NCBI GenBank assembly: GCA_017303575.1
Contig: JAFLCL010000019.1
Coordinates: 1-63,023 of the forward strand
DNA length: 63,023 bases
Reading direction: 5' to 3'
Source: Deltaproteobacteria bacterium
GTDB lineage: Bacteria; Myxococcota_A; Polyangia; Polyangiales; Sandaracinaceae
Shown: piece after piece, positions 24,937-39,927 of the stretch
How the letters are laid out: each line of letters opens with the position of its first letter
Numbering within the stretch: the first letter of the stretch is position 1
Notes under the pieces: model-generated
Told to the model about the DNA's origin: nothing
The model's database searches: none
What the model saw: only the letters and a program-made list of their open reading frames with translations
Position numbers and translations under genes: made by a program

Positions 24937-25161
24937 ATGACCGATGCGACGACTGGTGTTCCGCCGTGGAAGTTCTGGCACCCGCTCCCGTTCTGGCAGG
25001 TGATCGTGATCGCGTTCGTGATGCAGATCCTGTGCATCATCCCGCTCGTGGCGCTGAACCAGCTCGCGGGCCTCGCGATCCCCGAGTGGGTCGCCAGCGG
25101 CATCGCGGGCGCCGGCATGTTCGTGGCCGTGCGCTTCTTCGCGAACCGTCGCCTCGCTTGA
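24937..25161 (+). CDS. Small two-helix membrane protein
   Basis: 74 residues from the ATG at 24937, with a strong Shine-Dalgarno (GAGGAGG). Two hydrophobic segments (about 20-42 and 52-70) are separated by IPEW. No known family; the gene is too short for firm assignment. It lies alone between the Tat lipoprotein and the AraC gene. The 164 bases upstream show no other feature. Confidence 0.65.
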   Translation: MTDATTGVPPWKFWHPLPFWQVIVIAFVMQILCIIPLVALNQLAGLAIPEWVASGIAGAGMFVAVRFFANRRLA

Positions 25162-25215
25162 GTTGGCCGGGTCGAGGGCGTCGAGCGATCGCACGACAAG
25201 TGCGATGCTCGCGGG

Positions 25216-26097
25216 GTGCTGCGGCAGGACATGGAGGTCGCCCTCCCGGTCGAAGGCGCGCGCGCTCGCTACGGCAGCGTGCGTGATCAGGGCTTCGCCG
25301 TGTCGGTGCTGTGGAGCGCAGGCATCGCGAGCGACTGGGGCATCTTGTCGCGCCTCACGTCCTACATCGCGCGCCAGCGTCGCCCGCAGCTCTCCGTCGT
25401 CTTGCGCGGTCGCGGCTACGTCGCGACCGACGGCGTCGTGACCAGCCTCGGCGTGGGTGATGTCGTCGTGCTCGATCAGTCGCGCCAAGACCACGAGGGC
25501 TACGCAGGCTCGCCGTGCGAGGTGCTCGTCTTCGAGTGGGAGCCCGACATCGGCCTGGGTCCCGCGCACGTGGGGCCGCCCTTCATCGGCCGCCTGGGAC
25601 CGCGCGATCTCGCGCGCCTGCAGGCGCTCACGTCGCGCTTCTCCGAGGAGACGGCGCTCGCGTGGATGCTCGAGCTGGTCGAGCTGCTGCGCGTGCTCGG
25701 CCTCGGCGCAGAGGCGCTGCCCCGCGCGCCCGCGATCGTCACGCCGCGCGTCGCGCAGCTCTACCGCGCGCTCGGCGAGCTGCGTGGACAGCTGGATCGA
25801 CATCCCTCGCTGCCCGAGCTCGGCGAGGCGGTGGGCCTCTCGGAGCGCCAGGCGCGCCGCGATCTCGACGAGCTCGAGTCGCAGTTCTCCATGCCGATCG
25901 ACGGCTTCCGCGACGCGCTCTCCGACATGCGCATGAGCCACGCCCAGCAGCTGCTCTCGATCGAGTCACTCTCGCTCGCCCGCGTCGCCCAGCTGAGCGG
26001 CTTCCGCTCCGCCATCGCGCTGAGCCACGCGTTCACCGCGCGCTCGGGCCAGACCCCCGGCGAGATCCGCACCCTGCTCCGTCACCGCTGGCGGTGA
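25216..26097 (+). CDS. AraC-family transcriptional regulator
   Basis: 293 residues from GTG at 25216 (an ATG at 25231 is also possible). The N-terminal half is a cupin-like sensor domain (LSVVLRGRGYVATDGVVTSL). The C-terminal ~95 residues carry the two AraC helix-turn-helix units, the second as LARVAQLSGFRSAIALSHAF with a GQTPGEIR end. The effector is unknown and no target gene is clear; the downstream ohr has its own MarR-type control. Its stop lies inside a small tandem repeat. Confidence 0.85.
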   Translation: MLRQDMEVALPVEGARARYGSVRDQGFAVSVLWSAGIASDWGILSRLTSYIARQRRPQLSVVLRGRGYVATDGVVTSLGVGDVVVLDQSRQDHEGYAGSPCEVLVFEWEPDIGLGPAHVGPPFIGRLGPRDLARLQALTSRFSEETALAWMLELVELLRVLGLGAEALPRAPAIVTPRVAQLYRALGELRGQLDRHPSLPELGEAVGLSERQARRDLDELESQFSMPIDGFRDALSDMRMSHAQQLLSIESLSLARVAQLSGFRSAIALSHAFTARSGQTPGEIRTLLRHRWR

Positions 26098-26144
26098 GGG
26101 GGCTGGCGGTGAGGGGGCTGGCGGTGAGGGGCTCGCGGTGAGGG
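26088..26144 (+). repeat. 15-bp tandem repeat spanning the AraC stop codon
   Basis: CTGGCGGTGAGGGGG at 26088-26102 is repeated exactly at 26103-26117, again less one G at 26118-26131, and once more with a changed base at 26132-26144. The first copy contains the last codons and TGA of the AraC gene, so each copy repeats a stop codon. It looks like slippage or duplication at the gene end. Confidence 0.85.
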
Positions 26145-26162
26145 TGCAAGCACTCAAGCTCC

Positions 26163-26186
26163 CCTCTCCCGCGAGAGCGGGAGAGG
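26163..26186. repeat. REP-like hairpin downstream of the AraC gene
   Basis: CCTCTCCCGC (26163-26172) pairs perfectly with GCGGGAGAGG (26177-26186) around a GAGA tetraloop. A closely similar hairpin (CCCCTCCCGC / GCGGGAGGGG) occurs at 35194-35217. Such elements are common interspersed palindromes in GC-rich genomes. It may also act as the AraC terminator. Confidence 0.6.
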
Positions 26187-26287
26187 ACACGCGGGCTTGG
26201 GCCCCGCGAGGTGAGGGCTACGTGGCTCGCGCCGACCAACGCCCCGAACACTCCAACGTCCGCCGTCACATTACGTTGTAAACAAAT

Positions 26288-26303
26288 CGATTGCATACAA
26301 TCG
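26288..26303. promoter_or_regulatory. Candidate OhrR operator overlapping the ohr promoter
   Basis: CGATTG (26288-26293), CATA and CAATCG (26298-26303) form a dyad inside an unusually AT-rich stretch 57 bp before ohr. It resembles the AT-rich inverted repeats bound by OhrR repressors, and it contains a -10-like TACAAT (26296-26301). With ohrR encoded just downstream, peroxide-relieved repression of ohr is the obvious model; binding itself is inferred. Confidence 0.65.
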
Positions 26304-26359
26304 AAATGGCGTCAGAGTGTGCTCACGCCGAACGAACACGGCGCAACAAGGAGCCCTCC

Positions 26360-26803
26360 ATGACCATCGCGACGCCGAGCCCCGTCCTCTACACCGCCAC
26401 CGCCACTGCCTTCGGAGGCCGCGAAGGCCGCGTCGCCTCGGACGACGGCATCCTCGAGCTCCAGGTCGTCCCGCCCAAGACGATGGGCGGCAAGGGCGGC
26501 GCGACCAACCCCGAGCAGCTCTTCGCGGCCGGCTACTCCGCGTGCTTCGGCAGCGCCGTCGCCCACGTCGCACGCTCGCAGAAGCTCGTGACCGGCCCCG
26601 TCGAGATCACCGCGAAGGTCGGCATCGGCCCGATCACGCGCGCCGACGGCGGCCAGGGCTTCGGCCTCACCGTCGCGCTCGAGGCCAAGATCCCCGAGCT
26701 GTCGCGCGAGCAAGCCGAGGCGCTCGTGAACACGGCGCACCAGGTGTGCCCCTACTCGAACGCGACCCGTGGCAATGTCCCAGTGACCGTCACGGTCGTT
26801 TGA
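26360..26803 (+). CDS. ohr: Organic hydroperoxide resistance protein
   Basis: 147 residues, the usual Ohr length. Ohr is a thiol peroxidase that reduces organic and fatty-acid hydroperoxides using lipoylated protein as electron donor. The two redox Cys are present: Cys62 in SACFGSA and Cys130 in QVCPYSNATRGN. The catalytic environment NPEQLFAAGYSACF is intact. The start has an AAGGAG Shine-Dalgarno. An OhrR-like operator lies upstream and ohrR downstream, the classical arrangement. Confidence 0.95.
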   Translation: MTIATPSPVLYTATATAFGGREGRVASDDGILELQVVPPKTMGGKGGATNPEQLFAAGYSACFGSAVAHVARSQKLVTGPVEITAKVGIGPITRADGGQGFGLTVALEAKIPELSREQAEALVNTAHQVCPYSNATRGNVPVTVTVV

Positions 26804-26978
26804 GCTCTGTTTCCCGCGCCTCCGGCGCTCGGTACGGGGAGACCCGGCAGCTCCCCCGCGTCGCACAGAATGTGCGCCAGAGGGCGCGGCCCCCCTGCTC
26901 GTCCTTCGTCGCTTCGCACACGTTTCCTCGCGCCTTCGGCGCTGACTGCTCGGATGCCGTGCCGGCATCCTCCGCTCG

Positions 26979-27020
26979 CTGCTCCAGGGGGAACTTCGTT
27001 CCCCCGCCGCAAGGCGCCCC
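26979..27020 (+). repeat. Intergenic stem-loop element, copy 1
   Basis: A 42-bp element that recurs at 36276-36317 in the same orientation. Its stem is GGGGGAAC (26987-26994) with GTTCCCCC (26998-27005) and a TTC loop, flanked by CTGCTCCA on the left and GCCGCAAGGCGCCCC on the right. It sits in the 249-bp gap between ohr and ohrR, just before ohrR. Stem bases differ between the copies in a compensated way. Confidence 0.75.
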
Positions 27021-27052
27021 ATCCGCGGCGTGATTCTCAAGGACGGTCTTCG

Positions 27053-27493
27053 ATGAGCCTCCGACTCGACGATCAGCTCTGCTTCGCGCTCTACGCGGCC
27101 TCGCGCGCCGTCACGGCGGCGTACGCGCCGCTGCTCGCGCCGCTCGGTCTGACGTACCCGCAGTACCTCGTGATGTTGGTGCTGTGGGAGACCGACGGCG
27201 TGTCGGTGAAGCAGATCGGCGAGCGCCTCGCGCTCGACTCGGGGACGCTCACGCCGCTCCTCAAGCGCCTCGAGTCGCAGGGCCTGCTCGCGCGTCAGCG
27301 CAGCGCGGAGGACGAGCGCGTCGTCGAGATCCACCTCAGCGCAGACGGCAAGAAGCTCAAGCAGCGCGCCAAGTCGATCCCCGAGAAGCTCGGCTGCAAG
27401 TTCGGCGTGCCCCTCGAAGAGATCATCGACCTTCGCGATCGTCTGCACGCGCTGACGAGCGCGACACGCACTTCCGCGACCGAAGACGCATGA
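27053..27493 (+). CDS. ohrR: MarR-family organic-peroxide sensor OhrR
   Basis: 146 residues. The N-terminal [15 protein letters not shown] contains the peroxide-sensing Cys10 at the place conserved in OhrR. The winged helix follows with [20 protein letters not shown], then [16 protein letters not shown] and [13 protein letters not shown]. Oxidation of the Cys releases the repressor from DNA. The single sensing Cys plus a later one (LGCKF) suggests either a 1-Cys or 2-Cys mechanism. It is 249 bp downstream of ohr, more than usual, with the stem-loop element between. Confidence 0.93.
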
Positions 27494-27816
27494 GTCACGG
27501 ATCGGCAGCTGCGTAGCCGCCCGGCGCCGACAGCGGTGCGTGAATATCCACACGCTCTCCTCGTCCTGCCCACGCCCCGCGAACGGCGTCACCGCTCCAC
27601 CTCAGAGCACCAGTGCCGTCACCAGCGCACCCCGAGTCCACCGCGTAATGGATGGAGTATCGCCCTCCAGTGGGCGACACCCACGTTCGCGCATTACGTT
27701 GATACGCATAGTGCTTCAAGGTGCTGGACGCCTGGGCCCTACCATGCTCCCGAGCAACGGCGGTGGAGCCACGACGGTGCTGGCTCACGCCAGATCGTGG
27801 AAATGCAGGCATTCGA
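27494..27816. other. Intergenic stretch at the edge of the lower-GC defence island
   Basis: No gene can be supported in these 323 bases. GC falls from left to right. A nested pair of inverted repeats is visible: CGTAATG (27644-27650) with CATTACG (27692-27698), enclosing CGCCC (27661-27665) with GGGCG (27672-27676). The minus strand has an open frame of 105 codons (27495-27812) ending near ohrR, but it has no start signal or recognisable product. This could be the remnant of an insertion boundary. Confidence 0.4.
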
Positions 27817-28641
27817 CTAAGGCGTCCGGAGCGGTACCTGCGACGGCAGTGGCCATGTCACCCCAGCAGACGGAGGGACCAGCAGCTCCATCGCGTCGCG
27901 CGCCAAAAGTGCATAAGCATGTCGAGAGGTCATTATCTCAGTGGCACGACGAACGGCGGCGCGCACACTCGCTCGAGTGCCAGCCGTGAGTGCAGCCAGA
28001 ACCAAGTCCGCCTCCCTTCGCACGACCGTTTCCACGTGATCACGACGCATATCTAGAAGGTTGCTGTGGTTCAGTCTCAACACGTTGATCGTGGCATCGC
28101 CTCTCTCGCTAGCCCCACGCGGGCGCGCACACCATTGCGGCGGACCCCCCAGACGCGGGTCTACGGGCTCATACTTGAACTGGATATGCGTCGCGGGATT
28201 CGTACGTCCCGCTGGATCGAGGAGCAGGGGAACCTCCCCGCCGGGAGGGTCGGCCTCTGGGTGCAAGACGCCGCTCCCTGACTTCAGAGGGAAGCTGTCG
28301 TTCTTGCCTGATCGGTTACAGTTGGCGCATGCGAAGAGCATGTTTGACCAGTTCCAAGCAAGCCACCAGTACCCGTGCGTGAAAGAGCTTCCGGGTCGAC
28401 GATCTCCTCGCGCCTTCGGCCGGTAGTGCTCAACGTCGTTGTACACGCAGTGAAGCCTGGTTTCGCAGTAGCAACACTTGTGAAACTGCCGGTGCCACAA
28501 AACCTCTGCGGCGATGTCGTAGCCATTGATCTCTCTTGAGGTGGGTGCTCGTGCGCATGCGATGCGCCGGATCCTGGGGAGATGTGTCAGTCGAGCGGCG
28601 CCGACTGCTGCGGGTTCCCGGCCGCGCCGGACGCGAATCAC
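27817..28641 (-). CDS. PtuB-like HNH endonuclease (Septu / retron-associated HNH family)
   Basis: 274 residues from a GTG at 28639-28641 that overlaps the stop of the upstream ATPase gene (GTGA). The HNH core is complete: KCCYCE (Cys56/57/59), EHYRPK (Glu71, His72), GYWWLAWNW and ACANCN (Cys105, Cys108), giving two CxxC zinc pairs around the catalytic His. VPLLLDP and the later THIQF segment are also typical of PtuB/TIGR02646 proteins. In Septu systems this nuclease works in complex with the ATPase PtuA to cut DNA on phage infection. The gene is GC-poorer than its surroundings, as expected for a transferred defence gene. Confidence 0.85.
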   Translation of the reverse strand: MIRVRRGREPAAVGAARLTHLPRIRRIACARAPTSREINGYDIAAEVLWHRQFHKCCYCETRLHCVYNDVEHYRPKARGDRRPGSSFTHGYWWLAWNWSNMLFACANCNRSGKNDSFPLKSGSGVLHPEADPPGGEVPLLLDPAGRTNPATHIQFKYEPVDPRLGGPPQWCARPRGASERGDATINVLRLNHSNLLDMRRDHVETVVRREADLVLAALTAGTRASVRAAVRRATEIMTSRHAYALLARDAMELLVPPSAGVTWPLPSQVPLRTP

Positions 28642-31600
28642 GCTCGGCCCCCACTCGTCGTTGTCTTCCGCCCCTTGGACGATCGCCTACTGCGTGCGAC
28701 AGTTGGCCACGGAGGGACGATACCGGCGATGGCGAGCTCGCCAGAGATGGCCGCTAGTTCGCTATCCTCCTGATCGCTCCGCGCAGCCAGGTTAGCAAGG
28801 AAGCCATGCCGATCGAGCTGGCGCCCCAGCAAGTCGGGCTTCAAGTCGCCTATCCCAAAATACTGGCGAAGGATCTGTCCGCTGGTAAGGAGCATCGCGG
28901 GGTCAGTCCCCTGCACGGCCTCGATCCCGGTCGGTCCGCGCGAAAGAATCCACGTTTCGTCCGCGCGCACCCCGACCAGGGTGAGTGGGTTGTGCGTCGT
29001 AACGACGAACGACATCTGCGGCAAGATCTCGCGTACACGGGAGATCGCTGTCATCTGCCACTGGGGGTGCAAATGCAGGTCGAACTCGTCGATAAGCACT
29101 AGCCCCCGTGCGTGGGACAGAAAGTCCGGGCTCAGTTCGCGGCCATCCTCTTCGGCCATTTCGGACCATCGCGCAACGAAGTCAAGGAACCAGCCCGCCG
29201 TGGTAAGATACCCGTCGCTCATGGACTCGAATGGGATTCGTGCGCCGTGACGTTCAGTGACCCAAAGGCGCTTGCCGTCAACCTCGATCTCGGCGACGTC
29301 GAGCAACTTCTTAAGCGCCAGAAGAACTATAGCAAGAAGGTCGCGCGACCGCGGACTTCGACCAGCATCCCCATCGAGGATGAGGATCCACGTCTCCGCG
29401 TGGATCAGGTCGCGAGCCTCGCTGAAAAGCGTTGCCACCTCTGGCCCACCATCGGTCTTGATGGTGGCCTCGCGTGTGCGTCCTCCCAGGGCAGACCCAC
29501 GCCGACAGCCGTATCCGAACAACGGGAAGAGCCGTTCCCGAGTCTGCACGGGAACCTGTGTGACCCGGGGACCGGTATCAGCGCGGAGGCGGCTCTCGTG
29601 GAAATCAGATCCACCGACTTCGACAACGACGCGGGCTTCGTCTGTTCCCATACGAGGCCAAGGAGCCGCGAAAGCATCATCTGGCCAAATCGCCGGGTCC
29701 TGTGCATTTCGGCACGCAAGCGCAATACTGCGCAGTATGGTCGTCTTTCCGACGCCATTCGGACCCAGTAGAACTATCCACTGGCCGCGGCCCTTGGGCG
29801 GTGAAGGAAACGTCAGCTGAAGATTGGACAGTCCACGAACGTCTCTCAGTGCTACCCGGGAGAGCGTGACTGGAGCTTCGGGCACCCGCGCCGCCTGAGG
29901 CGCATTGGTTGACGCCGGCGGCGGATTGGGCAGTGTGAGACGACTCCAAGTATCGCTGACATCGAGTGACGAACTTTCCCGTTGCTGCAACTCCCGGAGT
30001 TGATGAAATGCGTACGAAGCGTAGCGGCAATCCACGCCCATTTCGCGGAGCACGCGCGCTAACGCGGCAGTTCGTCGCATCCGCGGCATTCCGCTTTCCC
30101 GCACTGCGTCCACGAGGAAGACCCAAGCGTCTGGGTGCTCCGTCGCGATGCTGCCGACGGCGCTGATCGCGTCGGTCTCTTCCGACGTCGTAAGGTCGCC
30201 GCCAAAAACCGCGAGAATTGCTGACCATCCGCTCCGCCCTTCCGTCGCTGAAACCAGGGACGTTACTTCGCGCGCTAGACGTCGCGCTTCCGACAACTCA
30301 GTCTCATCGTGGTGGGGCCCGAAGTGGTGCGTGAACGCAATGGCCGCCAGCCTGATTGTCGTCGGATGCCCATTCGACTCTAGGCAGGCCTGCAACAGAA
30401 GAACTCGGTTGCCTCGCGAAAAGACATTCACCGGATCCAAGGGAAACTTGTTAAGCAGTTCTAGCCAGAGTGATCGATCGAGCGCGGGTGGACGCGGCAC
30501 GAGGTAATCGATGCCCGTGGTCGACGCTTGCAACCAAGATGACGGATCAATGGCGCCGGCCCGCTGCCCAAGCGAACTGAATGTGGCAAGGCACAGTCTG
30601 GCAAAGGCCTCCTTTAGGTTTGGATTCAATGCCTTGCTGAAGGCGTTGTTCGCGTCGCTCATGCGGAGGCGAGTAGATGACGAGCGCCAGAAGTGAGACC
30701 ACGCAGGAATGGCCAGAGGGGGGGCTCCAGCATGAAGCTGGGACGTCGTCCATGGGGCTCTCAGGTGAGAGAGCGAAGGCAGTATGTCTCCCTCATCTAC
30801 GCGCCATCTCTGCTCCGCCTGGATCCACTCGAGAGTGTCTCCGAGTTGTTCGGCGCGGAGCGACCTTGCGAAGCTGCGGAGATCTTTCGCACTGCGTGCT
30901 GCCCGCAGACACGTTGCGAGTGGCCATGCGCAGAAGTCAGCGACCATTCTCCAGTCATCCAGTTTCCAGTGCTCCGCAAAAACTTCTAGCGCGAGCGCAG
31001 CAGTCTTCGCACTGGGATCCAAGGCAAAATCGCAGAGCGCGAGAACAGGCTCCCATCCACGGGGACAGGGCGTGGACGGTCTTCGACTCGTCGTTGCGTG
31101 TCGCACTCTCGGTCCAACGCGGTAGACGGACCATCGTCTCAGGTTCTCAGTGGAGCGGCGGAGCGATCGCGAAACCCACGCGCACCATTCGCCCGCCTCG
31201 GAGCCTCTCTCGGACCCGGCGAGCAGGGGCACGACCTGCGCGGATGGAAAGGCGTCTCCGGCGTCCGCAATCCTACGGAGAAGCCAGTCTCGCGGTCGGA
31301 TGTTCGCCGTGTACCCGATGGCTATCATGCGCGGTAGTTGGCTGGGCGAACCGAGGTACCGTTCTACAAGTCCAAGCGCCCAAACCTGACCAACCCCAAC
31401 GCTCTCGATCAAGCATGCGATGGCACCAGAAGCCGGCGCCGATCGCCGCAGCCGTTCTTCGATCGCTTCCGCAAGTAAGCTGCCCCACTCAGACTCAGCC
31501 ACTCGAGCTAGACGCAGGTGGGCGTCAGAGGGCGGGAGATCTAGGAGTCGGACCGCGCGAGCAAGAAGGGCCGCGGCCTGGCGTGGTTGGTTGAGTACCG

Positions 31601-33458
31601 ATCCTTCCTCCAGAATCTCAAGCGCCAACGATGCTCCGATACCGGCGTGGCTACCTGGCCAAGAGTCCGCAACCGCGTCGGCTTCTACGCAGAGCGTGTC
31701 GGCGAGCCCGCCCCGAAGGTGCGAGTTCTCGCTGAAGAGTCTACTGGCCATGAACAGGAGGACATTGCGAAACATGGAGGCGCGCGAGATCTGCTCGAGG
31801 CGCGCGCTGATCATGACGTCCGGTCCTGCCGAGAGTGCCCACGCTGCCATGAACTCTTGCAACGAGCGAATCTCGAAGCCAAACTGCCCGGGCTCGGGCT
31901 CCACGAGGAACACCAGGCGCTGTTCGGCCGCCTTGAGCATGTCGGCGACCAACTCCTCGCGCTGGTTCAGAGCGTCACTTTCGTGTGGCGCAGTGTCAAT
32001 TGTCTCCTCGCCGAGGACCTCGTGTACGACGGCCCGCAGTTGTGCTGACGACATTCGTGCAGGGGCCCCGCCGGCTCGTTCCGCCTCAACTTGTAGGAGC
32101 AGAGCAACTCGCGTATGGATTGCCTCGATGTGGCTGCGATGGTCCGCTAGAAGCGCTGATGCGAACGTTCCGCGTTCGATCTCTCGATTGTATGTGTAGT
32201 CGAAGTATCTAGCGAAGAGTCTCCATCGTTCGCGGGGTGCTCGCCCTTGCTGTTGGATGAGCGCAGTGATGATTGTCACTTGAAGCGGCGTCGTCATCAG
32301 ACGAGCGGTTGACGGGTTTTCCGCGGCCTCTCGCATGCGTTCCAAGAGACGTTGCTGCTCGTCCACGCCTGGAACTTTGGCGGCCAGCAATCTGGCGGCG
32401 TATTCTAGGGCGTGGGACGGATCTAGCGAGGCTAGAATCTGCGGTCTTAGCGGAATGCCCAGGGCGGCCAGTTCACCGGCGTATCCCTGTGGCCTGGTTG
32501 TAGCGAGGACCTGCGCGTGGCAGTTGTTGCCGGCCAGTGTGAGCAGGAGACGTCGTGCGGCGATGACAATGGCTTCTCGATCGTCGGTAGCACCCACCTC
32601 ATCAAATCCATCGAACACAATGAGGAACCCGATGTGTCCAGATATTGCGAGTAGGTGCCGTGGCGACAGGCCCACGGTATGCGCACTGGGGAGTGTCGCG
32701 ATGAAGTTCAGGATGTCCCCGGACTTTACTCCAGAGCGTGCTTGGCTGGACAGCCAGGCAGCCAACGCGGGCAGCGAGACATGCAACGGAAGCAGGGCCT
32801 TGTCGGGCAATGAAAGGCGCAGTTCGCCGTTTGCCGCGGATCCTTCTTCAAAGGTGGCAAGCACGATCTGTTCGCGCGTCGCCAGGTGCTCCTTGGCTGA
32901 CCTGAGAAGGGCGACACGGTGTAGTTGGCATGCAATCTGACCCAGGGTCGACTTGCCTTGGCCCGGACCGCCGATGAGCAGCACGCCGGACGCGCTAGGA
33001 TGAGGTCGGGGAGGACGTCCGTTGCGGATTCGTAGGGCTGTTTCGCTAGCGTCGTCTTCGTGGTTCGGCGGCAAGTCGCAGAAGAAGAAGCTGAGGGGAA
33101 GCGGACTAGCACCCATCAGACTTCCCAGGAACGGCTCACCTGACTCGGCGTGGGGTGAGTTCTTGACCGGCAGGTCGACGAAGACCCGCCGCAACGGCAC
33201 ATCCGTAAGCGTGTGTCCAGCCTGGCCGAGCTTCGCGAACTCGTCGGCGAGCATGAGCTTCGCCAGCCAATCGCGTATTGCACGAACGTCGTCGGGCCCC
33301 AGGCCTGCACTCGTCGCTGCGTCCGCAAGCATGTCGGGCGTGGCTTCGGGGTCACCGAGCGGATGGAGGCGAGGTTTCCTCGCGCTCGGGCGGCGTGGAG
33401 GGGTGCGTTTTTGGGTGCCAGACGGCGACCCGACCTTGGTCTTTTGCTTGCTAGGCAT
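28638..33458 (-). CDS. NACHT NTPase fused to a PtuA-like ABC/SMC-type ATPase
   Basis: 1606 residues. Residues 155-330 form a NACHT/STAND NTPase: Walker A GGPGQGKST (Lys169), Walker B VFDGFDE (Asp283, Asp286, Glu287), TTRP at 320-323, then the helical arm ending in RSLQEFMAAWAL (531-542). Residues ~560-1180 are helical with no motif, a plausible sensor. Residues 1195-1510 form a second ATPase of the AAA_15/OLD/PtuA kind: LGPNGVGKTT (Lys1238), signature-like MSDG, LVLIDEFDLHLHP (Asp1457, Glu1458) and TTHNPL. The HNH gene follows with a 4-base overlap. PtuA normally has only the second part (about 500-600 residues). Start ATG at 33458 follows an AGGGAGG sequence. Codon use is less GC-biased than in neighbours. 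Confidence 0.85.
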   Translation of the reverse strand: MPSKQKTKVGSPSGTQKRTPPRRPSARKPRLHPLGDPEATPDMLADAATSAGLGPDDVRAIRDWLAKLMLADEFAKLGQAGHTLTDVPLRRVFVDLPVKNSPHAESGEPFLGSLMGASPLPLSFFFCDLPPNHEDDASETALRIRNGRPPRPHPSASGVLLIGGPGQGKSTLGQIACQLHRVALLRSAKEHLATREQIVLATFEEGSAANGELRLSLPDKALLPLHVSLPALAAWLSSQARSGVKSGDILNFIATLPSAHTVGLSPRHLLAISGHIGFLIVFDGFDEVGATDDREAIVIAARRLLLTLAGNNCHAQVLATTRPQGYAGELAALGIPLRPQILASLDPSHALEYAARLLAAKVPGVDEQQRLLERMREAAENPSTARLMTTPLQVTIITALIQQQGRAPRERWRLFARYFDYTYNREIERGTFASALLADHRSHIEAIHTRVALLLQVEAERAGGAPARMSSAQLRAVVHEVLGEETIDTAPHESDALNQREELVADMLKAAEQRLVFLVEPEPGQFGFEIRSLQEFMAAWALSAGPDVMISARLEQISRASMFRNVLLFMASRLFSENSHLRGGLADTLCVEADAVADSWPGSHAGIGASLALEILEEGSVLNQPRQAAALLARAVRLLDLPPSDAHLRLARVAESEWGSLLAEAIEERLRRSAPASGAIACLIESVGVGQVWALGLVERYLGSPSQLPRMIAIGYTANIRPRDWLLRRIADAGDAFPSAQVVPLLAGSERGSEAGEWCAWVSRSLRRSTENLRRWSVYRVGPRVRHATTSRRPSTPCPRGWEPVLALCDFALDPSAKTAALALEVFAEHWKLDDWRMVADFCAWPLATCLRAARSAKDLRSFARSLRAEQLGDTLEWIQAEQRWRVDEGDILPSLSHLRAPWTTSQLHAGAPPLAIPAWSHFWRSSSTRLRMSDANNAFSKALNPNLKEAFARLCLATFSSLGQRAGAIDPSSWLQASTTGIDYLVPRPPALDRSLWLELLNKFPLDPVNVFSRGNRVLLLQACLESNGHPTTIRLAAIAFTHHFGPHHDETELSEARRLAREVTSLVSATEGRSGWSAILAVFGGDLTTSEETDAISAVGSIATEHPDAWVFLVDAVRESGMPRMRRTAALARVLREMGVDCRYASYAFHQLRELQQRESSSLDVSDTWSRLTLPNPPPASTNAPQAARVPEAPVTLSRVALRDVRGLSNLQLTFPSPPKGRGQWIVLLGPNGVGKTTILRSIALACRNAQDPAIWPDDAFAAPWPRMGTDEARVVVEVGGSDFHESRLRADTGPRVTQVPVQTRERLFPLFGYGCRRGSALGGRTREATIKTDGGPEVATLFSEARDLIHAETWILILDGDAGRSPRSRDLLAIVLLALKKLLDVAEIEVDGKRLWVTERHGARIPFESMSDGYLTTAGWFLDFVARWSEMAEEDGRELSPDFLSHARGLVLIDEFDLHLHPQWQMTAISRVREILPQMSFVVTTHNPLTLVGVRADETWILSRGPTGIEAVQGTDPAMLLTSGQILRQYFGIGDLKPDLLGRQLDRHGFLANLAARSDQEDSELAAISGELAIAGIVPPWPTVARSRRSSKGRKTTTSGGRA

Positions 33459-34206
33459 CTTCGCTCGCAGCCCTCCCTGGACGAACGTACTGGAGCCAAC
33501 CCTGAGATGTCGAGGCTTCTTCTCGCTGCGAGCACGCCGTTGCGCCTGACCTACCGGCTGGTCGCTGGCCTCTGAGACGTCTTGCGCCGTGGGTCTGGGC
33601 GCCCGCCAGTCGGCGAATTCCCGGGGTGGAGTTGGCGATGAGAAGGCCTCGGGGCCTTGACGGAGGAGGCCGCACGCCGTCCGGGCGCGACTCGGCCGAG
33701 CCGGAGCATCGGCGTAGGCGCCCAGGGATCGCGCGAAGCGAGCTGCTCATGGTCAGCGAGCGCCTGGGCGCCTTTGGAGAAGGCCGGTCATCGTCGGAGG
33801 CCTGGCCGCCCCTCGGCTGACGTGAAGCACCGTCGGAGGGCGCCTCGGCTCCGTTCGCCCGAAGTGGGTCATCGTCGGACAGCGCCTGGCCGCCCCTCGG
33901 CGGACGGGAGGCATCGTCGGAGGGCACCTGAGCGCCCTCGAGCGGAAGCGGCTCATCGACGGAGGGCGCCTGGGCGCCCGACGGCGGAAGCCGGTCATCG
34001 TCGGAGGGCACCTGGGCGCCCTCTGGAGGAAGCGGTTCATCGTCGGAGGGCACCTGGGCGCCCTCCGGAGAAGACCGTGCCAACTTTTTCGCTGCCGGGC
34101 GCGAATGAGCACGAAACTCGGCGCGGCTGCTCTCGATACGTGCCCTGACAGCGGAAGAACCGCCCAGGAGCAGAGCAGCCATGAGCAAGAGACGCATCCC
34201 GTCCAT
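33451..34206 (-). pseudogene. Possible exported repeat protein, probably frameshifted
   Basis: An ATG at 34204-34206 with a strong Shine-Dalgarno (GGAGGT) opens a frame with a convincing signal peptide (MRLLLMAALLLGGSSAVRA) followed by seven 14-residue repeats of the type GAQVPSDDEPLPPE. Third positions in the repeats favour G/C in this frame. After the repeats the composition becomes shadow-like; a change of frame would instead continue with GAQALADHEQL. It overlaps the start of the divergent paralogue-1 gene by 26 bp, which weakens the case. It may be a decayed gene or a chance frame over a minisatellite. Confidence 0.35.
33761..34070. repeat. 42-bp minisatellite, about seven degenerate copies
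   Basis: The unit contains GGTCATCGTCGGAGGGCACC and GGGCGCCC and recurs every 42 bp (one copy about 39). The copies nearest 34070 are best conserved; those near 33780 are more diverged. A 42-bp period equals 14 codons, which would be selected in a coding repeat. It lies in the 722-bp gap between the defence operon and the paralogue/HerA operon; outside the repeats this gap shows no other signal. Confidence 0.85.
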
Positions 34207-35023
34207 CGACACCTCCCTCGATCCCGCCACCCTCGGCGGGCCGGCGCTCGAAGCCGTGCGCGACGAGCTGCTCGCGATCGACGAGCGCGACCTCCTCAGC
34301 CTCAACGTCGAGGTCTCCGCGGCCGCGACGCTCATCGTCGGGGCTGCGCCGGTGATCCGCCGCCACCGCGCGGCGCTCGTCGCGCAGTTCGGTGAGCCGA
34401 TGACGGGGGCCGCCCTCGATCGGCTCGAGCTGCTCGCGCGCGCCGCGCTCCAAGCGCACGCGGCCTACCGCGCGCTCGAGAGCGGGACCGACGTGCAGCA
34501 GCTCTCGGCCGATGTCGTGAAGTACCGCGAGGTGCTCGTCGCCGAGGTGCGCACGCTCGTCCTGCGCGGCGTGCTCTCGCGCGGTGTCGTCGGTGAGCTG
34601 CAGGGGACCAAGGGGTTCAGGAACCAGTACCTCGACCTCATGCAGCTCACGGCGGTCCTCACGGAGCACTGGGACACCGTGGAGCCGCAGACGGGCCTCG
34701 AGCTCGCGTACGTCCAGCAAGCCGAGGCCGCGGCGCACGCGCTCGTCGATGCGATCGGCGCGCGCAGCCTCGCGTCGCAGTCGCCCGCGGCGGAGCTCCG
34801 GCAGCGCGCGTTCACGCTGATGGCGAGCACCTACGACGACGCGCGACGCCTCATCTCCTTCCTCCGCTGGAAGCGCGGCGACGCCGACCGCATCGCACCT
34901 TCTCTCTTCGCGGGTCGCAGCAACGGTCGTCGCGCGAAGCCGAGCGAGAGCACCGAGGAGCCCTCGCCTGACGTGACTCCATCGCCCGATGCGCCCGACG
35001 GCGACCCGTTCGCCGGCACTTGA
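34181..35023 (+). CDS. Paralogue 1 of a tandem family of unknown function
   Basis: 280 residues, start ATG at 34181 with an AGGAG Shine-Dalgarno. The protein is mostly helical, with a shared core in all three tandem copies: an early VVIGA/LIVGAAP turn, GTKGFRN in the middle and RWKRGDADRIAPSLFAGR near residue 235-250. A flexible Pro/Asp/Glu tail follows and ends DAPDGDPFAGT. No signal peptide, membrane segment or catalytic motif is seen, so it is probably cytoplasmic. It heads a plus-strand run with paralogues 2 and 3 and a HerA-like ATPase. High GC suggests it is native. Confidence 0.75.
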   Translation: MSKRRIPSIDTSLDPATLGGPALEAVRDELLAIDERDLLSLNVEVSAAATLIVGAAPVIRRHRAALVAQFGEPMTGAALDRLELLARAALQAHAAYRALESGTDVQQLSADVVKYREVLVAEVRTLVLRGVLSRGVVGELQGTKGFRNQYLDLMQLTAVLTEHWDTVEPQTGLELAYVQQAEAAAHALVDAIGARSLASQSPAAELRQRAFTLMASTYDDARRLISFLRWKRGDADRIAPSLFAGRSNGRRAKPSESTEEPSPDVTPSPDAPDGDPFAGT

Positions 35024-35039
35024 AAAAAAACGATGACGA

Positions 35040-35157
35040 GCACGCAACACGCCCGCGGCCTCGTCGATAAGTGAACCGGCGACGAGAGAAGCGCGTCGCG
35101 AGAGAAAAAAGAAACGACGCACGCAACAGGCTCGAAGACGCGTCGATAAGTGAACCG
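35040..35157 (+). repeat. Two direct repeats of 39 bp, 79 bp apart
   Basis: 35040-35078 and 35119-35157 share GCACGCAACA at the left and CGTCGATAAGTGAACCG at the right, separated in both by 12 variable bases. Both are followed by GA-rich sequence (GAGAGAAG / GAGAGAAA). The fixed spacing of two constant blocks suggests a binding site or a small structured element more than simple slippage. Confidence 0.8.
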
Positions 35158-35193
35158 CGAGAGAGAAAGAAGCTCTCGTGTCCCCTCCCCCGG

Positions 35194-35217
35194 CCCCTCC
35201 CGCCGTCGCGGGAGGGG
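35194..35217. terminator. Strong hairpin upstream of paralogue 2
   Basis: CCCCTCCCGC (35194-35203) pairs with GCGGGAGGGG (35208-35217) around CGTC. It resembles the REP-like hairpin at 26163-26186. Only a short GGTCTT follows, so termination without Rho is uncertain. Confidence 0.45.
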
Positions 35218-35372
35218 GGTCTTGCTGAGTCGCCTCGGCCTTTGATTGCGCGCTCACCGGAGTCGCTCCGAGTGAGGCGTGAAGAGTCCCGCACCGCGAT
35301 TCGCCCAGCGCGATCGGCAGTGCAGGTCTGGTGCCCCTTTGTCTCCACACAGTGTCTCGAAAGGACCTCGTC

Positions 35373-36203
35373 ATGCCTGAAGTGTCTGTTCCCTCCACGT
35401 CTGCATCCGTCGACCAGCTCGCGAGCTTGCGCTCGGAGATCGACGCCCTCCTCGACCGCGACGTGCTCACGCCGCGGATCGACGTCGCTGCCGCCGCGCC
35501 TGTGGTGATCGGCGCGATGCCCACGATCGAGAAGCACCGCGCGGCCGTGCTCGCCATCTTCGGCGAGCGAGGCTCACGCACGCTCGATCGACTCGTGCCG
35601 CTCGCACGAGCTCTGTCGCTCGCACACGCGATCACCGTCGCCACCACCGAGCGGGACCTCGAGCCCCTGGCGAAACGAGCCTTCGAGGTGCGTAACGGGC
35701 TCTACCTCGCGGCCTCCGCGCTCATCGAGCGCGACGTCGTCTCGAAGAGGTCGCTCGTGAAGCTCACCGGCGGCACGAGCTACCAGGGCTGCGTCGAGGA
35801 CACGCGAGCGCTCGCATCCTGGTTCCGTGCACTGCCCAGCGACGCGCGCGCGCAGTGCAAGGTGAGCGACGCCGACCTCGCTCGCGCCCACACGATGGCC
35901 GACGAATTCGAGGCAGCGTTCTCAGAGCGCAACTTCGCCCGCGTGGCGGGGACCCTCGCGATGGAGGACCGCGCTCGCGTGTTCACGCTGTTCTTCCGTG
36001 CCTACGACCGAGCGCGCCAGATGCTCTCGTACGTGCGCTGGCACGAGGGCGACATCGATCGGATCGCACCCTCGCTCTACGCCGGCCGCGCGACGCGCAG
36101 GAGCGACTCCGCAGTCGTCACACCGCCGCAGGCGCCCACGCCGATCACCCCGACGCCCGTCGTGTCTCCCGACATGCCTGGCGCCGATCCGTTCCCCGTC
36201 TGA
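35373..36203 (+). CDS. Paralogue 2 of a tandem family of unknown function
   Basis: 276 residues from the ATG at 35373. It is homologous to its neighbours on both sides: PVVIGAMPTIEKHRAA, GGTSYQG, FFRAYDRARQMLSYVRW and GDIDRIAPSLYAGR align with the same blocks. The tail is Pro/Thr-rich and ends PDMPGADPFPV. No localisation signal or enzyme motif. Intergenic DNA on both sides carries repeats (39-bp repeats before, the 42-bp stem-loop after), so this copy may be expressed independently. Confidence 0.75.
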   Translation: MPEVSVPSTSASVDQLASLRSEIDALLDRDVLTPRIDVAAAAPVVIGAMPTIEKHRAAVLAIFGERGSRTLDRLVPLARALSLAHAITVATTERDLEPLAKRAFEVRNGLYLAASALIERDVVSKRSLVKLTGGTSYQGCVEDTRALASWFRALPSDARAQCKVSDADLARAHTMADEFEAAFSERNFARVAGTLAMEDRARVFTLFFRAYDRARQMLSYVRWHEGDIDRIAPSLYAGRATRRSDSAVVTPPQAPTPITPTPVVSPDMPGADPFPV

Positions 36204-36275
36204 GTTGGCCTGGGTCGAGGGACCTCTGGCCCCTCGAGCTCCCCGTCGCTCACTCCGCTTCGCTCCGCATCGCTC

Positions 36276-36317
36276 CTGCTCCAGGGGGAGCTGCGCTCCC
36301 CCGCCGCAAGGCGCCCC
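36276..36317 (+). repeat. Intergenic stem-loop element, copy 2
   Basis: Matches 26979-27020 over 42 bp. The stem is GGGGGAGC (36284-36291) with GCTCCCCC (36295-36302) and a TGC loop. Relative to copy 1 an A-T stem pair is replaced by G-C, keeping the pairing. It lies in the gap between paralogues 2 and 3. Confidence 0.75.
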
Positions 36318-36365
36318 CGATCTGAATCGCTCCTGAACCCCTCGAGAAAGAAAGAGAGTCTGATC

Positions 36366-37253
36366 ATGCCTTCCCCCCGTACCTACGATCCCCGACACCC
36401 GGCCTTCACCCATGCGCTCGACGCGATGCGCGCGGAGCTCGGGGCCATCCCGCAGGGCGAGCTCCTGCCCATCCGGCTCGACATCACGTCCGCCATCATC
36501 ACGGCGTTCGGTGTCCTGCCCAAGGTGGTGAAGCTGCGCGAGGCCATCGTGGACGAGCTCGGCGCCACCGCCGTGCGCTACGTCGATCAGCTCGAGCGCA
36601 GCACGCAGGCATGTGCTCGCGCGCATGCGCTCTACCTCACGACGATCCACGGCACCGAGGTGGAAGAGAAGGTGTCCGAGCTCAGCGGCGTGCGTCGTGT
36701 CCTCTTGGTCGAGGCCCAGGGCCTCGTCGCGAAGAAGCGCCTCTCGGCGTCGTCGCTCGCGGAGATCGTGGGAGGCACGGGCTTCAAGGCGATGTGCATC
36801 GACGTGCTCCAGCTCGTGTCGGCGCTCCGCGCGGACTGGCCGGCGATCGAGGCACACACACCGGTGACGTCGCTCGAGCTCGACGAGGCCGAGGCCCTCG
36901 CGAACGCCGTCGCGGCGCTGCTCGGAGAGGCCGAGCAAGCGAGCGCGAGCTCGCCCGAGGCCGTGATGCGTCAGCGCGCATACACGCACTTCATGCGCAC
37001 GTACGACGAGGTGCGCCGCGCGGTGGCCTGCGTCCGCTGGGTCGAGGAAGACGCGGACGACTTCGCCCCGTCGCTCTTCGCGAACCGAGAGCGTCGACGC
37101 GACGACGACACCGAGATCGATCCCGTCGTCACCCCGATCGTCCCGATCGTTCCGATCGTCCCGATCGTCGCAGCACCGACGAACGGTCCCGTGGCGCCGG
37201 TCGTACCGTTCAACCCTGATCTGCCGGGCGCTCCGCCCTTCGTGACGTCGTGA
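36366..37253 (+). CDS. Paralogue 3 of a tandem family of unknown function
   Basis: 295 residues. The shared blocks are present as GGTGFKA, TYDEVRRAVACVRW and DADDFAPSLFANR. The tail contains a short PIVPIV repeat and ends FNPDLPGAPPFVTS. Its TGA overlaps the GTG start of the HerA-like ATPase gene (GTGA), so the two are translationally coupled. This is the strongest evidence that the paralogues work with that ATPase. Function unknown. Confidence 0.78.
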   Translation: MPSPRTYDPRHPAFTHALDAMRAELGAIPQGELLPIRLDITSAIITAFGVLPKVVKLREAIVDELGATAVRYVDQLERSTQACARAHALYLTTIHGTEVEEKVSELSGVRRVLLVEAQGLVAKKRLSASSLAEIVGGTGFKAMCIDVLQLVSALRADWPAIEAHTPVTSLELDEAEALANAVAALLGEAEQASASSPEAVMRQRAYTHFMRTYDEVRRAVACVRWVEEDADDFAPSLFANRERRRDDDTEIDPVVTPIVPIVPIVPIVAAPTNGPVAPVVPFNPDLPGAPPFVTS

Positions 37254-38665
37254 GCAACGCGCTCAAGCTCGGCGCGAAGCGCCCTGTCGACGGCAAGCAA
37301 GACCTCGGCGCGTACGTGCTCGATCCCGATCACCTCACGACGCACGGCGTGATCGTGGGCATGACCGGCAGCGGCAAGACGGGCCTGGTCATGGTGCTCG
37401 TCGAAGAGGCGCTCGCGAACGAGATCCCCGTGCTCGTCATCGACGTGAAGGGTGATCTCCCCAACCTGCTCCTCGCGGTTCCGTCGTTCGATCCAGAGCC
37501 GCTCGCGCCCTGGGTCGAGGCACCGCGAGGAGACGAAGACGGCATCGCCGATCCTCCGCTCGTCGCGGAGGTCGCCGCGAAGCGCGCGTCGAGCCTGCGG
37601 AGCTGGGGCATCGACGAGGACGCGCCGCGTGACTTCGGCGAGAAGCACCACATCCGCATCGTCACGCCCGGCTCCGACGCAGGCGAGCAGCTCCATCTGC
37701 TCTCGGCGCTCGAACGTCGCTCGCCTCGATGGGACGACGACCTCGAGGGCGCGCGCTCGACGTTGGGCGCTGCGATCTCTCTGGTGATGCGGCTCGTCGG
37801 TCGCGACGCCGAGCCAGGCAAGAGCCGAGAGCACGCGCTCTTGTCGGTGCTCGCCGAGAAGCGACTGATCGCCGGCAAGGACGCATCACTCGGTGCGTTG
37901 GTGCCAGAGATCCTCGAGCCACCGTTCGTCACGATCGGTGCGTTGGAGGTCGACGAGTTCCTCTCGCCCCGCGCGAGGAAAGAGCTCGCGGCGGACCTCA
38001 ACACACTGCTCGCCGCACCGTCGCTCGCTGGATGGAGAACGGGCGCGAGCCTCGACGTGGCTGCGTGGATGGCGCCGGTGGAGGGCAAGACACCGGCAAC
38101 GGTGGTGAGCGTCGCGCACCTCGACGAGGACGAGTGCCAGATGGTCCTCGGCGTGATCCTCGAAGAGGTGCTCACGTGGGTCCGCACGCTGCCCGGCACC
38201 TCACAGCTGCGCGCGCTGGTGGTCTTCGACGAGATGTACGGCTTCGTGCCGCCACATCCCGCGAGCCCACCGACGAAGCGGCCCATCGTGTCGCTGATGA
38301 AGCAGGCCCGCGCCTACGGAGTCGGCGTGGTCCTCGCGACGCAGAACCCGATGGACCTCGACTACCGGGCCCTGTCGAACGCTGGCCTCTGGATGCTCGG
38401 CCGCCTCCAGACCGATGCAGACCGGGAGCGTGTGCTCGAGGGCCTGGGTGAGACGGGCAAGAAGAGCCCGCTCGGCAACGTGCTGAAGAAGCTGCCACCG
38501 CGCTGGTTCGTGGTGAGGAACAGCCACGACAAGGGCCCGCCGATGCTCCTCCAGCCTCGCTACGCGATCTCGTATCTGCGCGGTCCGATGACGCGAGAGG
38601 AGATTCGCAAGGCGAGGCTCCCGCGCGACGCCGCGTTTGAGACGACCGTCGAAGAGAATCAGTGA
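37250..38665 (+). CDS. HerA/DUF853-like ATPase
   Basis: 471 residues with a GTG start overlapping paralogue 3. Walker A is GMTGSGKTG (Lys43) and the N-terminus DPDHLTTHGVIVG is typical of HerA/FtsK-superfamily proteins that bind a ring-forming ATPase to DNA or membrane partners. VLVIDVKGDLPNL follows, Walker B is VVFDEMYGFVPP, and FVVRNSHDKGPPMLLQPRYA is a late conserved region. Related genes in bacteria often act with defence or DNA-processing partners, but some have no known role. The stop overlaps the convergent Mrr gene by 7 bp. Confidence 0.82.
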   Translation: MSNALKLGAKRPVDGKQDLGAYVLDPDHLTTHGVIVGMTGSGKTGLVMVLVEEALANEIPVLVIDVKGDLPNLLLAVPSFDPEPLAPWVEAPRGDEDGIADPPLVAEVAAKRASSLRSWGIDEDAPRDFGEKHHIRIVTPGSDAGEQLHLLSALERRSPRWDDDLEGARSTLGAAISLVMRLVGRDAEPGKSREHALLSVLAEKRLIAGKDASLGALVPEILEPPFVTIGALEVDEFLSPRARKELAADLNTLLAAPSLAGWRTGASLDVAAWMAPVEGKTPATVVSVAHLDEDECQMVLGVILEEVLTWVRTLPGTSQLRALVVFDEMYGFVPPHPASPPTKRPIVSLMKQARAYGVGVVLATQNPMDLDYRALSNAGLWMLGRLQTDADRERVLEGLGETGKKSPLGNVLKKLPPRWFVVRNSHDKGPPMLLQPRYAISYLRGPMTREEIRKARLPRDAAFETTVEENQ

Positions 38666-39927
38666 GGACCGGCCCCGTCGTCCTCGTCACTGCGGCCGTA
38701 CACTTTCAGCCAGCGGACCAAGCGGTGATAATCGACGAGGTCCAGAGCGACTCCAGCCTTATGTGGCGCCCCCTGTTCATACTCAAACGCTTGCGGTTGG
38801 AACTCGCTCGTCGTGACGAGAACGCCGCGGTCGAGGTTTGACCAAAGAAGCGATCCCATCAGCTCACGCACCATCGCGCCGCTCACCTTGTTGTCGGTAT
38901 TCTTCCGCTTGCACTGGATGCCCATGACGAACTGACCGACGCCCTGTTTTCGGACGGCCAGTATGTCTATGCCATGGTCGGGGTGTCCACGGCCGCTCTT
39001 GGGTTGGAGCTTCACCTCGTACCCGTCCCGGTCGAGAAGGTGCGCGACGATCTTCTCAAATTCCCGTGGGTCGAGAGTCATGAGGTCGTACGGTTGTCGT
39101 CCCAACGAGTCGACCAACGCGCGCATGTCGGCGTCGGCATGTACGATCGCTGGTGAGGTCTCACCGAGAGGTCTGCCATCTGGACCGACGATTGCCGGGA
39201 CGGCAAAGGCGTCTGCGACGTCGGCCATCGCTCCGTACGACAGTGGTACGGGTACGGAACCCTTCCAGTCAGGGCCGAGTGCCCCCACGCCCTGCGGCAT
39301 CGGGGCACTTCGATGAAGGTGCACGGCTTCGTACAAAGATTGGGTTGCAAGCAACGCAAACGCGTGGTGCACGGGATGCTGCAGTAGTGGGGTTTCCGTG
39401 ACGACAAGATTCCCGTCGACCGTCTTCGGAAGATCTCTAGCGTCATCTGCCGCGGACCGAGCCCGCAACGCATCCTCCGCCGTGCGGTAGACCGCCCATC
39501 GTTGACGGTCAGATCTTCCGCCTATTGGAGACGAGGGGAAACGACCGCCCTCAATCTGTGGATAGCTAAACAAGCAATCTGAGAGAATCCGAGCTTCCAC
39601 GCCTGGCTCTCCCAGATACAGGGCCCCGGAGACGTTGCCCATACGGGAGTCACGCATCACGCTGTGGCGTGACCAGATCGGACTTGGCGTTACCCGGATC
39701 GACGTTACGCCTTCGGCGTCACGCAACAACAGAGTGACATCCGTGGTCCGGTCTCGCGACCGAAGGAAGATCGAAAAGCAATACGCGCCGGGCGGGACAG
39801 GACCTGCGAGAAAGGCGTGCTGCGTCTCCGCTCGTGCGAGCGCGAGACATACGCTCGCCGGGTCTGGACCAGGTCCGCCCGCACTCGGGTCTTGAAACTC
39901 CGCGGCTGCAAGCGAAAGCGTCGGCAT
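38659..39927 (-). CDS. Mrr-type restriction endonuclease domain protein
   Basis: 422 residues. The C-terminal third is an Mrr-like PD-(D/E)xK nuclease: LDPREFEKIVAHLL (Glu291), HPDHGIDILAV (Asp321) and IQCKRK (Gln338, Lys340), then VRELMGSLLW and RGVLVTTSEF. Mrr enzymes cut modified DNA and are type IV-like defence nucleases. The N-terminal ~280 residues match nothing I know and may sense a ligand or bind a partner. The gene has lower GC than the smc region, so it is probably acquired. No methylase is nearby. Confidence 0.85.
   Translation of the reverse strand: MPTLSLAAAEFQDPSAGGPGPDPASVCLALARAETQHAFLAGPVPPGAYCFSIFLRSRDRTTDVTLLLRDAEGVTSIRVTPSPIWSRHSVMRDSRMGNVSGALYLGEPGVEARILSDCLFSYPQIEGGRFPSSPIGGRSDRQRWAVYRTAEDALRARSAADDARDLPKTVDGNLVVTETPLLQHPVHHAFALLATQSLYEAVHLHRSAPMPQGVGALGPDWKGSVPVPLSYGAMADVADAFAVPAIVGPDGRPLGETSPAIVHADADMRALVDSLGRQPYDLMTLDPREFEKIVAHLLDRDGYEVKLQPKSGRGHPDHGIDILAVRKQGVGQFVMGIQCKRKNTDNKVSGAMVRELMGSLLWSNLDRGVLVTTSEFQPQAFEYEQGAPHKAGVALDLVDYHRLVRWLKVYGRSDEDDGAGPH

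Follow-up and report, generated by a model that had tools for sequence, protein, structure and literature searches.

A predicted NACHT switch fused to a PtuA-type ATPase and paired with an HNH nuclease: a candidate two-gene defence system in Sandaracinaceae

We describe a two-gene operon from a Deltaproteobacteria bacterium (Sandaracinaceae; contig JAFLCL010000019.1), located in a 63 kb stretch (positions 1 to 63,023; hereafter the window), that probably constitutes a system in which a predicted NACHT switch and a likely helical sensor, fused to a PtuA-type ATPase, activate an HNH nuclease on infection. The NACHT-PtuA fusion gene (28638..33458, minus strand, stop included) starts with ATG and remains open for 1606 codons. 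It is followed by a PtuB-type HNH nuclease gene (27817..28641, minus strand) that starts with GTG and encodes 274 amino acids, and the stop of the former overlaps the start of the latter by four bases, GTGA (28638..28641, minus strand). The genes and their order, the conservation of the HNH residues and of the active site in each nucleoside triphosphatase (NTPase), the linkage of the two genes, their correlated divergence and the occurrence of the NACHT module elsewhere without PtuA were all computed directly. Residue numbers below are those of the 1606-residue fusion protein unless the HNH protein is named.

Domain architecture of the fusion protein

A protein search with the fusion protein retrieved 783 homologues at E <= 1e-3 among 7991 candidates scored. 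The best 120 of these, which are 1222-1713 amino acids long and 37-50% identical to the query, were listed and checked, and all motif counts refer to them. The C-terminal part of the chain (residues 1196-1606; 28641..29873, minus strand) is a PtuA-type ABC ATPase with a C-terminal extension, an identity upheld by profile and structure comparisons, and its best structural matches were the PtuA proteins of retron I-A and Septu. All four motifs of this ATPase are intact. The Walker A motif GPNGVGKTT (residues 1232-1240; 29739..29765, minus strand) recurs as a pattern in 120/120 listed homologues, and the ABC signature SDGY (residues 1414-1417; 29208..29219, minus strand), invariant in the A1 alignment, recurs in 118. 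The Walker B motif LVLIDEFDLHLHP (residues 1453-1465; 29064..29102, minus strand) and the H-loop TTHNPL (residues 1487-1492; 28983..29000, minus strand) satisfy strict patterns in 109 and 107 homologues, respectively, with D1457, E1458, T1488 and H1489 invariant in the A1 alignment. The closest PtuA model was PADLOC PDLC00292, and the NCBIfam PtuA equivalog cut-off (retron Ec78 type) was missed at 96.1 vs 500 bits.

The N-terminal NTPase is predicted from its motifs and modelled fold to be a NACHT, an engine of the type that also occurs in immune receptors of animals. It occupies residues 155-660 (31479..32996, minus strand) together with winged-helix and helical domains, and carries the Walker A motif GGPGQGKST (residues 163-171; 32946..32972, minus strand; pattern in 111 of the listed homologues), the Walker B motif VFDGFDE (residues 281-287; 32598..32618, minus strand; pattern in 119) and, likewise in place, TTRPQGY at 320-326 and RSLQEFMAAWAL at 531-542. 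In the predicted structure the NACHT fold with its Walker A and B motifs, a feature of bNACHT proteins, is present. The whole protein matched Pfam NACHT at 33.4 bits, above the cut-off, but the best stretch sat on the PtuA P-loop; we therefore rejected this hit at face value, scanned the two halves separately and used the predicted structure. The assignment rests on motifs and fold because the N-terminal half taken by itself scored below the Pfam cut-off. Ahead of the NACHT, a conserved segment (residues 56-154; 32997..33293, minus strand) was delimited by conservation in the A1 alignment and by matches to a hidden Markov model (HMM) of the NACHT module; the same HMM finds it in NACHT proteins without PtuA. 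Pfam and PADLOC gave no match upstream of the NACHT, and residues 1-36 have a predicted local distance difference test score (pLDDT) below 50 in the model. The original prediction had reported a 1606-residue chain bearing both motors: the open frame was confirmed, the quoted motifs lie at the quoted places, and both domain identities were upheld by profile and structure comparisons, that of the NACHT through its predicted fold.

Between the two motors lies a fast-diverging region (residues 661-1160; 29979..31478, minus strand) that is entirely helical in the model and for which Pfam and PADLOC scans returned no match. Across 35 aligned rows, pairwise identity averaged 0.23 for this region, 0.57 for the NACHT (155-660) and 0.54 for PtuA (1161-1560). 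Because of its divergence and its position, the helical region is likely the sensor. It is joined to PtuA by a conserved hinge (residues 1163-1181; 29916..29972, minus strand), with W1171-x-x-L1174 followed by P1177, P1179 and P1181, whose columns are invariant or nearly so in the A1 alignment; the pattern W-x(1-3)-L-x-L-P occurs in 108/120 listed homologues at a median of 62 residues ahead of the PtuA Walker A. Both Walker A motifs are present in 111/120, and 85/120 satisfy the strict patterns for every one of the seven NTPase motifs. This conservation bears on the proposal that PtuA and HNH act as a stand-alone Septu for which the NACHT and middle region provide only a scaffold or a localisation. 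We fetched 20 PtuA-HNH loci without a NACHT module from the same phylum, one of them from the same genome, as such a proposal would expect, but most listed homologues retain the hinge as well as the active site of the NACHT, and the NACHT is, together with PtuA, the most conserved region; we consider this explanation improbable.

The HNH partner and its linkage to the fusion gene

The HNH protein contains a core (HNH-protein residues 55-113; 28303..28479, minus strand) with the elements CxxC, EHxRPK, N100 and CxxCN..K, seen here as KCCYCE (55-60), EHYRPK (71-76) and ACANCN (104-109). The gene had been predicted to encode a PtuB-like HNH protein, and this was borne out by its sequence and by profile and structure comparisons, among them a PADLOC PtuB match at 3.1e-43. 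NCBIfam PtuB (4.9e-11) and TIGR02646 (2.7e-9) also matched, both under their curated cut-offs, the PtuB equivalog at 42.9 vs 150 bits; a Pfam scan gave no match. Among 834 homologues of the HNH protein, six of the 120 listed bear the source name 'TIGR02646 family'. Across 35 linked HNH proteins there is no variation at C56, C59, E71, H72, R74, P75, K76, N100, C105, C108, N109 or K113.

Four more NACHT-PtuA loci with the same gene order, each with the HNH gene directly downstream, were found in three genomes of the same taxonomic order (L043 in G066, L042 and L041 in G325, and L053 in the single-contig genome G875), providing the independent fusion loci beside a TIGR02646-type HNH gene that the original prediction had named as support for a distinct system. 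The HNH gene also lies beside 20 short-PtuA loci of the phylum (420-682 amino acids) and beside a PNP-PtuA gene (L054), giving a total of 25/25 loci; 4-base gene overlaps recur at L053 and L054. A distant PtuA (L037, G377) has no HNH gene alongside. An HNH gene of the PtuB type was present in 0/9 fetched NACHT-module loci without PtuA (L004, L029-L032, L044, L045, L055, L057), the contig of L045 stopping 363 bases past the NACHT gene. The genome of the window additionally carries an ordinary Septu-like pair (L028, region G000:C12:22178-22726), in which a 479-residue PtuA is followed by HNH.

Beyond the phylum, the sizes of longest contigs were compared in place of fetched gene contexts of full-length members. 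By this measure, 31/120 NACHT-PtuA clusters matched one of 119 HNH clusters in exact longest-contig size and source (for example 4,404,085 bases in Paraburkholderia sp. BL17N1 and 5,207,891 bases in Polyangiaceae), while in 400 shifted controls the number of such matches averaged 0.46 and never exceeded 4. Since both cluster lists comprise the best ~120 entries, 31 is likely an undercount. The divergence of the HNH protein was correlated with that of the NACHT and of PtuA across 35 linked pairs (Mantel r 0.91 and 0.90, respectively), and after removal of the two deepest loci the values were 0.74 and 0.76; every p value was 0.0002, the lowest that 5000 permutations allow.

Distribution and variants of the family

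NACHT-PtuA proteins occur in 4/183 genomes of the order (G000, which is the genome of the window, G066, G325 and G875); a fifth match, in G862, is a restriction endonuclease (REase)-NACHT protein. Source names among the listed homologues include Comamonadaceae, Riflebacteria, Uliginosibacterium, Acinetobacter, Paraburkholderia and Polyangiaceae, and their source annotations are of ATPase type ('AAA family ATPase') or hypothetical protein. Thus, of the unusual joint build first noted at this locus, the fusion itself is real, but it is widespread and not peculiar to the locus. An assembly or annotation artefact joining two genes was rejected, since one chain also carries both NTPases in 111/120 listed homologues and in G875, a genome made up of a single contig. 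Full-length NACHT-PtuA was not found in sampled genomes of other groups (398 Pseudomonadota, 399 Burkholderiales and 398 Burkholderiaceae), which yielded NACHT-module proteins only; at most two candidates were scored per genome, so this absence is weak, and homologues named from these groups do exist in the protein search. These samples are named after the genomes at their centres, E. coli and G633, the latter Cupriavidus-like judging by one contig. A scan of genome contigs gave one distant locus, with NACHT only.

Nine of the 120 listed homologues, those without the NACHT Walker A, start inside the NACHT and align from fusion residue 194-283. These proteins (P0070, P0074, P0078, P0087, P0090, P0108, P0111, P0112 and P0116), whose source names include Burkholderia cenocepacia, Variovorax and Nitrospira, may be pseudogenes, may have misassigned starts or may reflect a split gene; one of them is a Burkholderia cenocepacia cluster of 21 sequences. 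Of the five loci known from the order, L041 has the front of its NACHT in another frame. A short group of 1222-1297 amino acids (P0081, P0092, P0098, P0117, P0120 and P0121) keeps NACHT and PtuA, with much of the stretch between them (residues ~740-1060) missing or replaced. In a PtuA tree, 19 fused rows form one supported clade (97/96), and three loci of family f5 stand apart, next to the PNP-PtuA of L054 (82/94, on a long branch); from the tree, the fusion may have arisen once or twice.

The guanine plus cytosine (GC) content of the gene pair is 62.0%, and that of 230 overlapping windows of equal size over the rest of the 63 kb averages 69.6% with a minimum of 66.3%. Because the value for the pair is below all 230, it suggests that the fusion and HNH genes were acquired jointly by horizontal transfer. 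Searches of viral contigs with four queries (A1, P0087, P0083 and P0028) found no relative; seven records of a phage collection gave partial matches, all confined to the PtuA part; and no plasmid record reached 80% query coverage, 102 having a partial match.

The modules on other proteins

The NACHT module (residues 56-660) recurs, at E 1.1e-44 to 1.9e-117, in plasmid proteins of Streptomyces and Arthrobacter and in single-gene proteins with a PD-(D/E)xK-like N-terminus, the sources of the latter being a Cupriavidus-like genome, plasmids of Variovorax and Klebsiella, and two further genomes. These single-gene proteins include REase-NACHT proteins of about 1306-1325 amino acids (L039:604-4524, L040:955-4896, L055:5271-9191, L029:7425-11402 and L030:7401-11363), which share the NACHT module at E 5.7e-71 to 1.9e-117 but have a PD-(D/E)xK-like N-terminus, recognised by eye, and neither PtuA nor an HNH neighbour of this family. 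PADLOC gave weak matches on L040, L055 and L029, with weak PD-(D/E)xK support for L055 and L029. A stretch of the middle region (~790-900) is common to L039, L040 and L029 at E 1.1e-17 or better and was not found in L055 or L030. In L040 the contig stops 363 bases past the gene. L056 is of the same type with an interrupted frame. An Arthrobacter plasmid protein annotated 'HNH endonuclease' (L031:6509-9937) combines an HNH-like N-terminus with the same NACHT module, and Mycobacterium and Rhodococcus plasmid matches carry similar 'HNH endonuclease' annotations.

The PtuA-HNH pair likewise occurs in several settings: alone, under retrons (in PDB entries), behind the NACHT, and behind a PNP/nucleoside-phosphorylase-like domain. 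The last of these, in L054:4991-8274 (G875), is fused to a PtuA whose gene overlaps the HNH gene by four bases, its PNP domain matching Pfam PF01048 at 9e-5 (22.4 bits vs a cut-off of 25.1). Since the NACHT module is found without PtuA and the PtuA-HNH pair under other controllers, switch and effector behave as separable modules.

Comparison with known systems

The operon resembles Septu in the fold and motifs of its PtuA ABC ATPase, in the overlapping downstream PtuB-type HNH gene and in the lack of a reverse transcriptase (RT) match on the contig. In Septu, however, PtuA stands alone, whereas here it is the last quarter (~1196-1606) of a 1606-residue chain behind a NACHT and a helical region, and NCBIfam equivalog scores are far below their cut-offs. 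Retron I-A systems (Ec78/Eco7, Ec83) have the PtuA-HNH effector in common with the operon, but here a NACHT module takes the place of the retron as controller. A retron was rejected because no RT match lies on the contig and an Rfam scan of 25000-36000 gave no match; the two RVT_1 matches of the genome lie elsewhere, on G000:C268 and G000:C63 (loci L048 and L049). With bNACHT proteins (for example bNACHT25, clade 6) the operon shares a NACHT switch, a helical region and a nuclease output; as far as PMC12169576 describes them, those proteins are tripartite, with an N-terminal effector and a C-terminal sensor, whereas this chain runs from the NACHT through a helical middle to the ATPase, the PtuA being C-terminal and the nuclease a separate second protein. 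In PADLOC PDLC00292, the first part of which also matches the HNH protein, HNH and ATPase form one chain; there HNH is fused to PtuA, here NACHT is. WonAB and PARIS (AriAB) also combine an OLD-type ABC ATPase with a separate nuclease, a PD-(D/E)xK protein in WonB and a Toprim protein in AriB (PMC12409363), and a NACHT module is not among the features described in the account consulted.

The build is thus assembled from known modules only, but their order and combination depart from Septu in one defining feature (a stand-alone PtuA) and from bNACHT proteins in another (an N-terminal effector). No description of a NACHT-PtuA fusion was found in the open-access literature. The possibility that the fusion was already a named Septu subtype was likewise not borne out: the N-terminal half matched nothing in PADLOC v2, and among 45 NCBIfam rows the best 25 were all PtuA and other ATPase families.

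Proposed mechanism and its alternatives

We infer that the NACHT switches on PtuAB. As is general for NACHT NTPases, the NACHT module would keep the chain inactive at rest. The helical region (661-1160), as its divergence and position suggest, would then detect a phage product or a state of infection, upon which the NACHT, using ATP, would assemble an oligomer and bring the PtuA domains together. By analogy with the solved PtuAB and retron I-A complexes, the PtuA domains would dimerise around ATP and keep the HNH protein in an active arrangement, and the nuclease would cut nucleic acid, most likely tRNA, halting growth of the infected cell. Septu EcB88 is reported to require the PtuA Walker and PtuB H-N-H residues and to cleave tRNA-Tyr (PMC13096335), and in retron-Eco7 PtuAB is described as depleting tRNA-Tyr; the same source holds that retron-Eco4 PtuAB is probably not tRNA-targeting and mentions another Septu reported to target DNA (PMC11555353). 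For bNACHT25 and bNACHT32, the account in PMC12169576 is of DNA degraded on infection through an N-terminal nuclease.

The main rival places the NACHT part as a lock that silences an intrinsically active PtuA-HNH nuclease, in the way that multicopy single-stranded DNA (msDNA) and RT silence theirs in retron I-A, until infection breaks it. In retron-Eco7, RT and msDNA are reported to neutralise toxic PtuAB (PMC11555353); in its fold the PtuA of the fusion comes nearest to those of retrons and Septu, and the loci without NACHT consist of PtuA and HNH. Set against this, the nucleases of bNACHT25/32 are described as being fired by infection or a phage protein, with the active site required (PMC12169576), and for DS-8, a NACHT protein with a metallophosphatase, the available description has defence depend on the ATPase residue of the NACHT as well as on the enzyme. 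Moreover, the NACHT motor is conserved here, and a passive lock would have no need of it. We regard such a lock as unlikely, if the most credible of the alternatives. Alternatively, the pair could act on plasmids or other stress instead of phage, or serve programmed death unrelated to infection; its phage role is proposed, and STAND NTPases are at work in non-defence death systems too. As the recognised parts come from families known in anti-phage systems, we give this explanation very little credence.

Several observations weigh against infection-triggered activation of the nuclease by the NACHT. The N-terminal half alone scored 20.2 bits against Pfam NACHT, under the cut-off of 26.7, and a genome-wide Pfam NACHT search (E <= 1e-3) reported three other places, the fusion protein not among them. 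An output behind the sensor is a departure from the bNACHT layout. The 31 equal contig sizes demonstrate neither adjacency nor gene order, and since joint inheritance alone correlates adjacent genes, the Mantel values of 0.91 and 0.90 are no proof of contact. The nine NACHT-internal starters and the broken frame of L041 may mean that some copies are dead or wrongly read. Searches of the phage, plasmid and viral-contig collections did not recover the complete operon, so the case for mobility is one of GC alone, and the activity of the family is proposed from sequence, model and analogy.

Neighbouring genes

An Mrr-type restriction endonuclease gene (38659-39927, minus strand; Pfam Mrr_cat 1.5e-22) lies 5 kb from the operon and, like it, has a low third-position GC (0.67); it is a candidate second defence gene. 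At 34181-38665 (plus strand), three paralogous-looking genes of 280-295 amino acids without Pfam match are followed by a HerA-like ATPase gene (Pfam HerA_C 5e-10) that overlaps the preceding gene by four bases.

Implications

PtuA-PtuB is known alone, as Septu, and under retron control. We lean towards regarding the family as a distinct, NLR-gated Septu, in which two ATP-driven engines, the NACHT and the ABC ATPase, flank a sensor, and assembly of the NACHT into an inflammasome-like ring would load and trigger PtuA-HNH. The same switch follows at least two other nuclease-like N-termini, and the PtuA-HNH pair occurs with other controllers (retron, PNP-like or none), such that, if this is true, both halves would be interchangeable parts. 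With 783 homologues at E <= 1e-3, the best 120 of them checked, the fusion is frequent enough to merit a name of its own in catalogues of defence systems. A PtuA that is joined in nature to an NLR-type switch would tell what kind of input PtuAB can obey, which can be tested through triggering of the NACHT alone.

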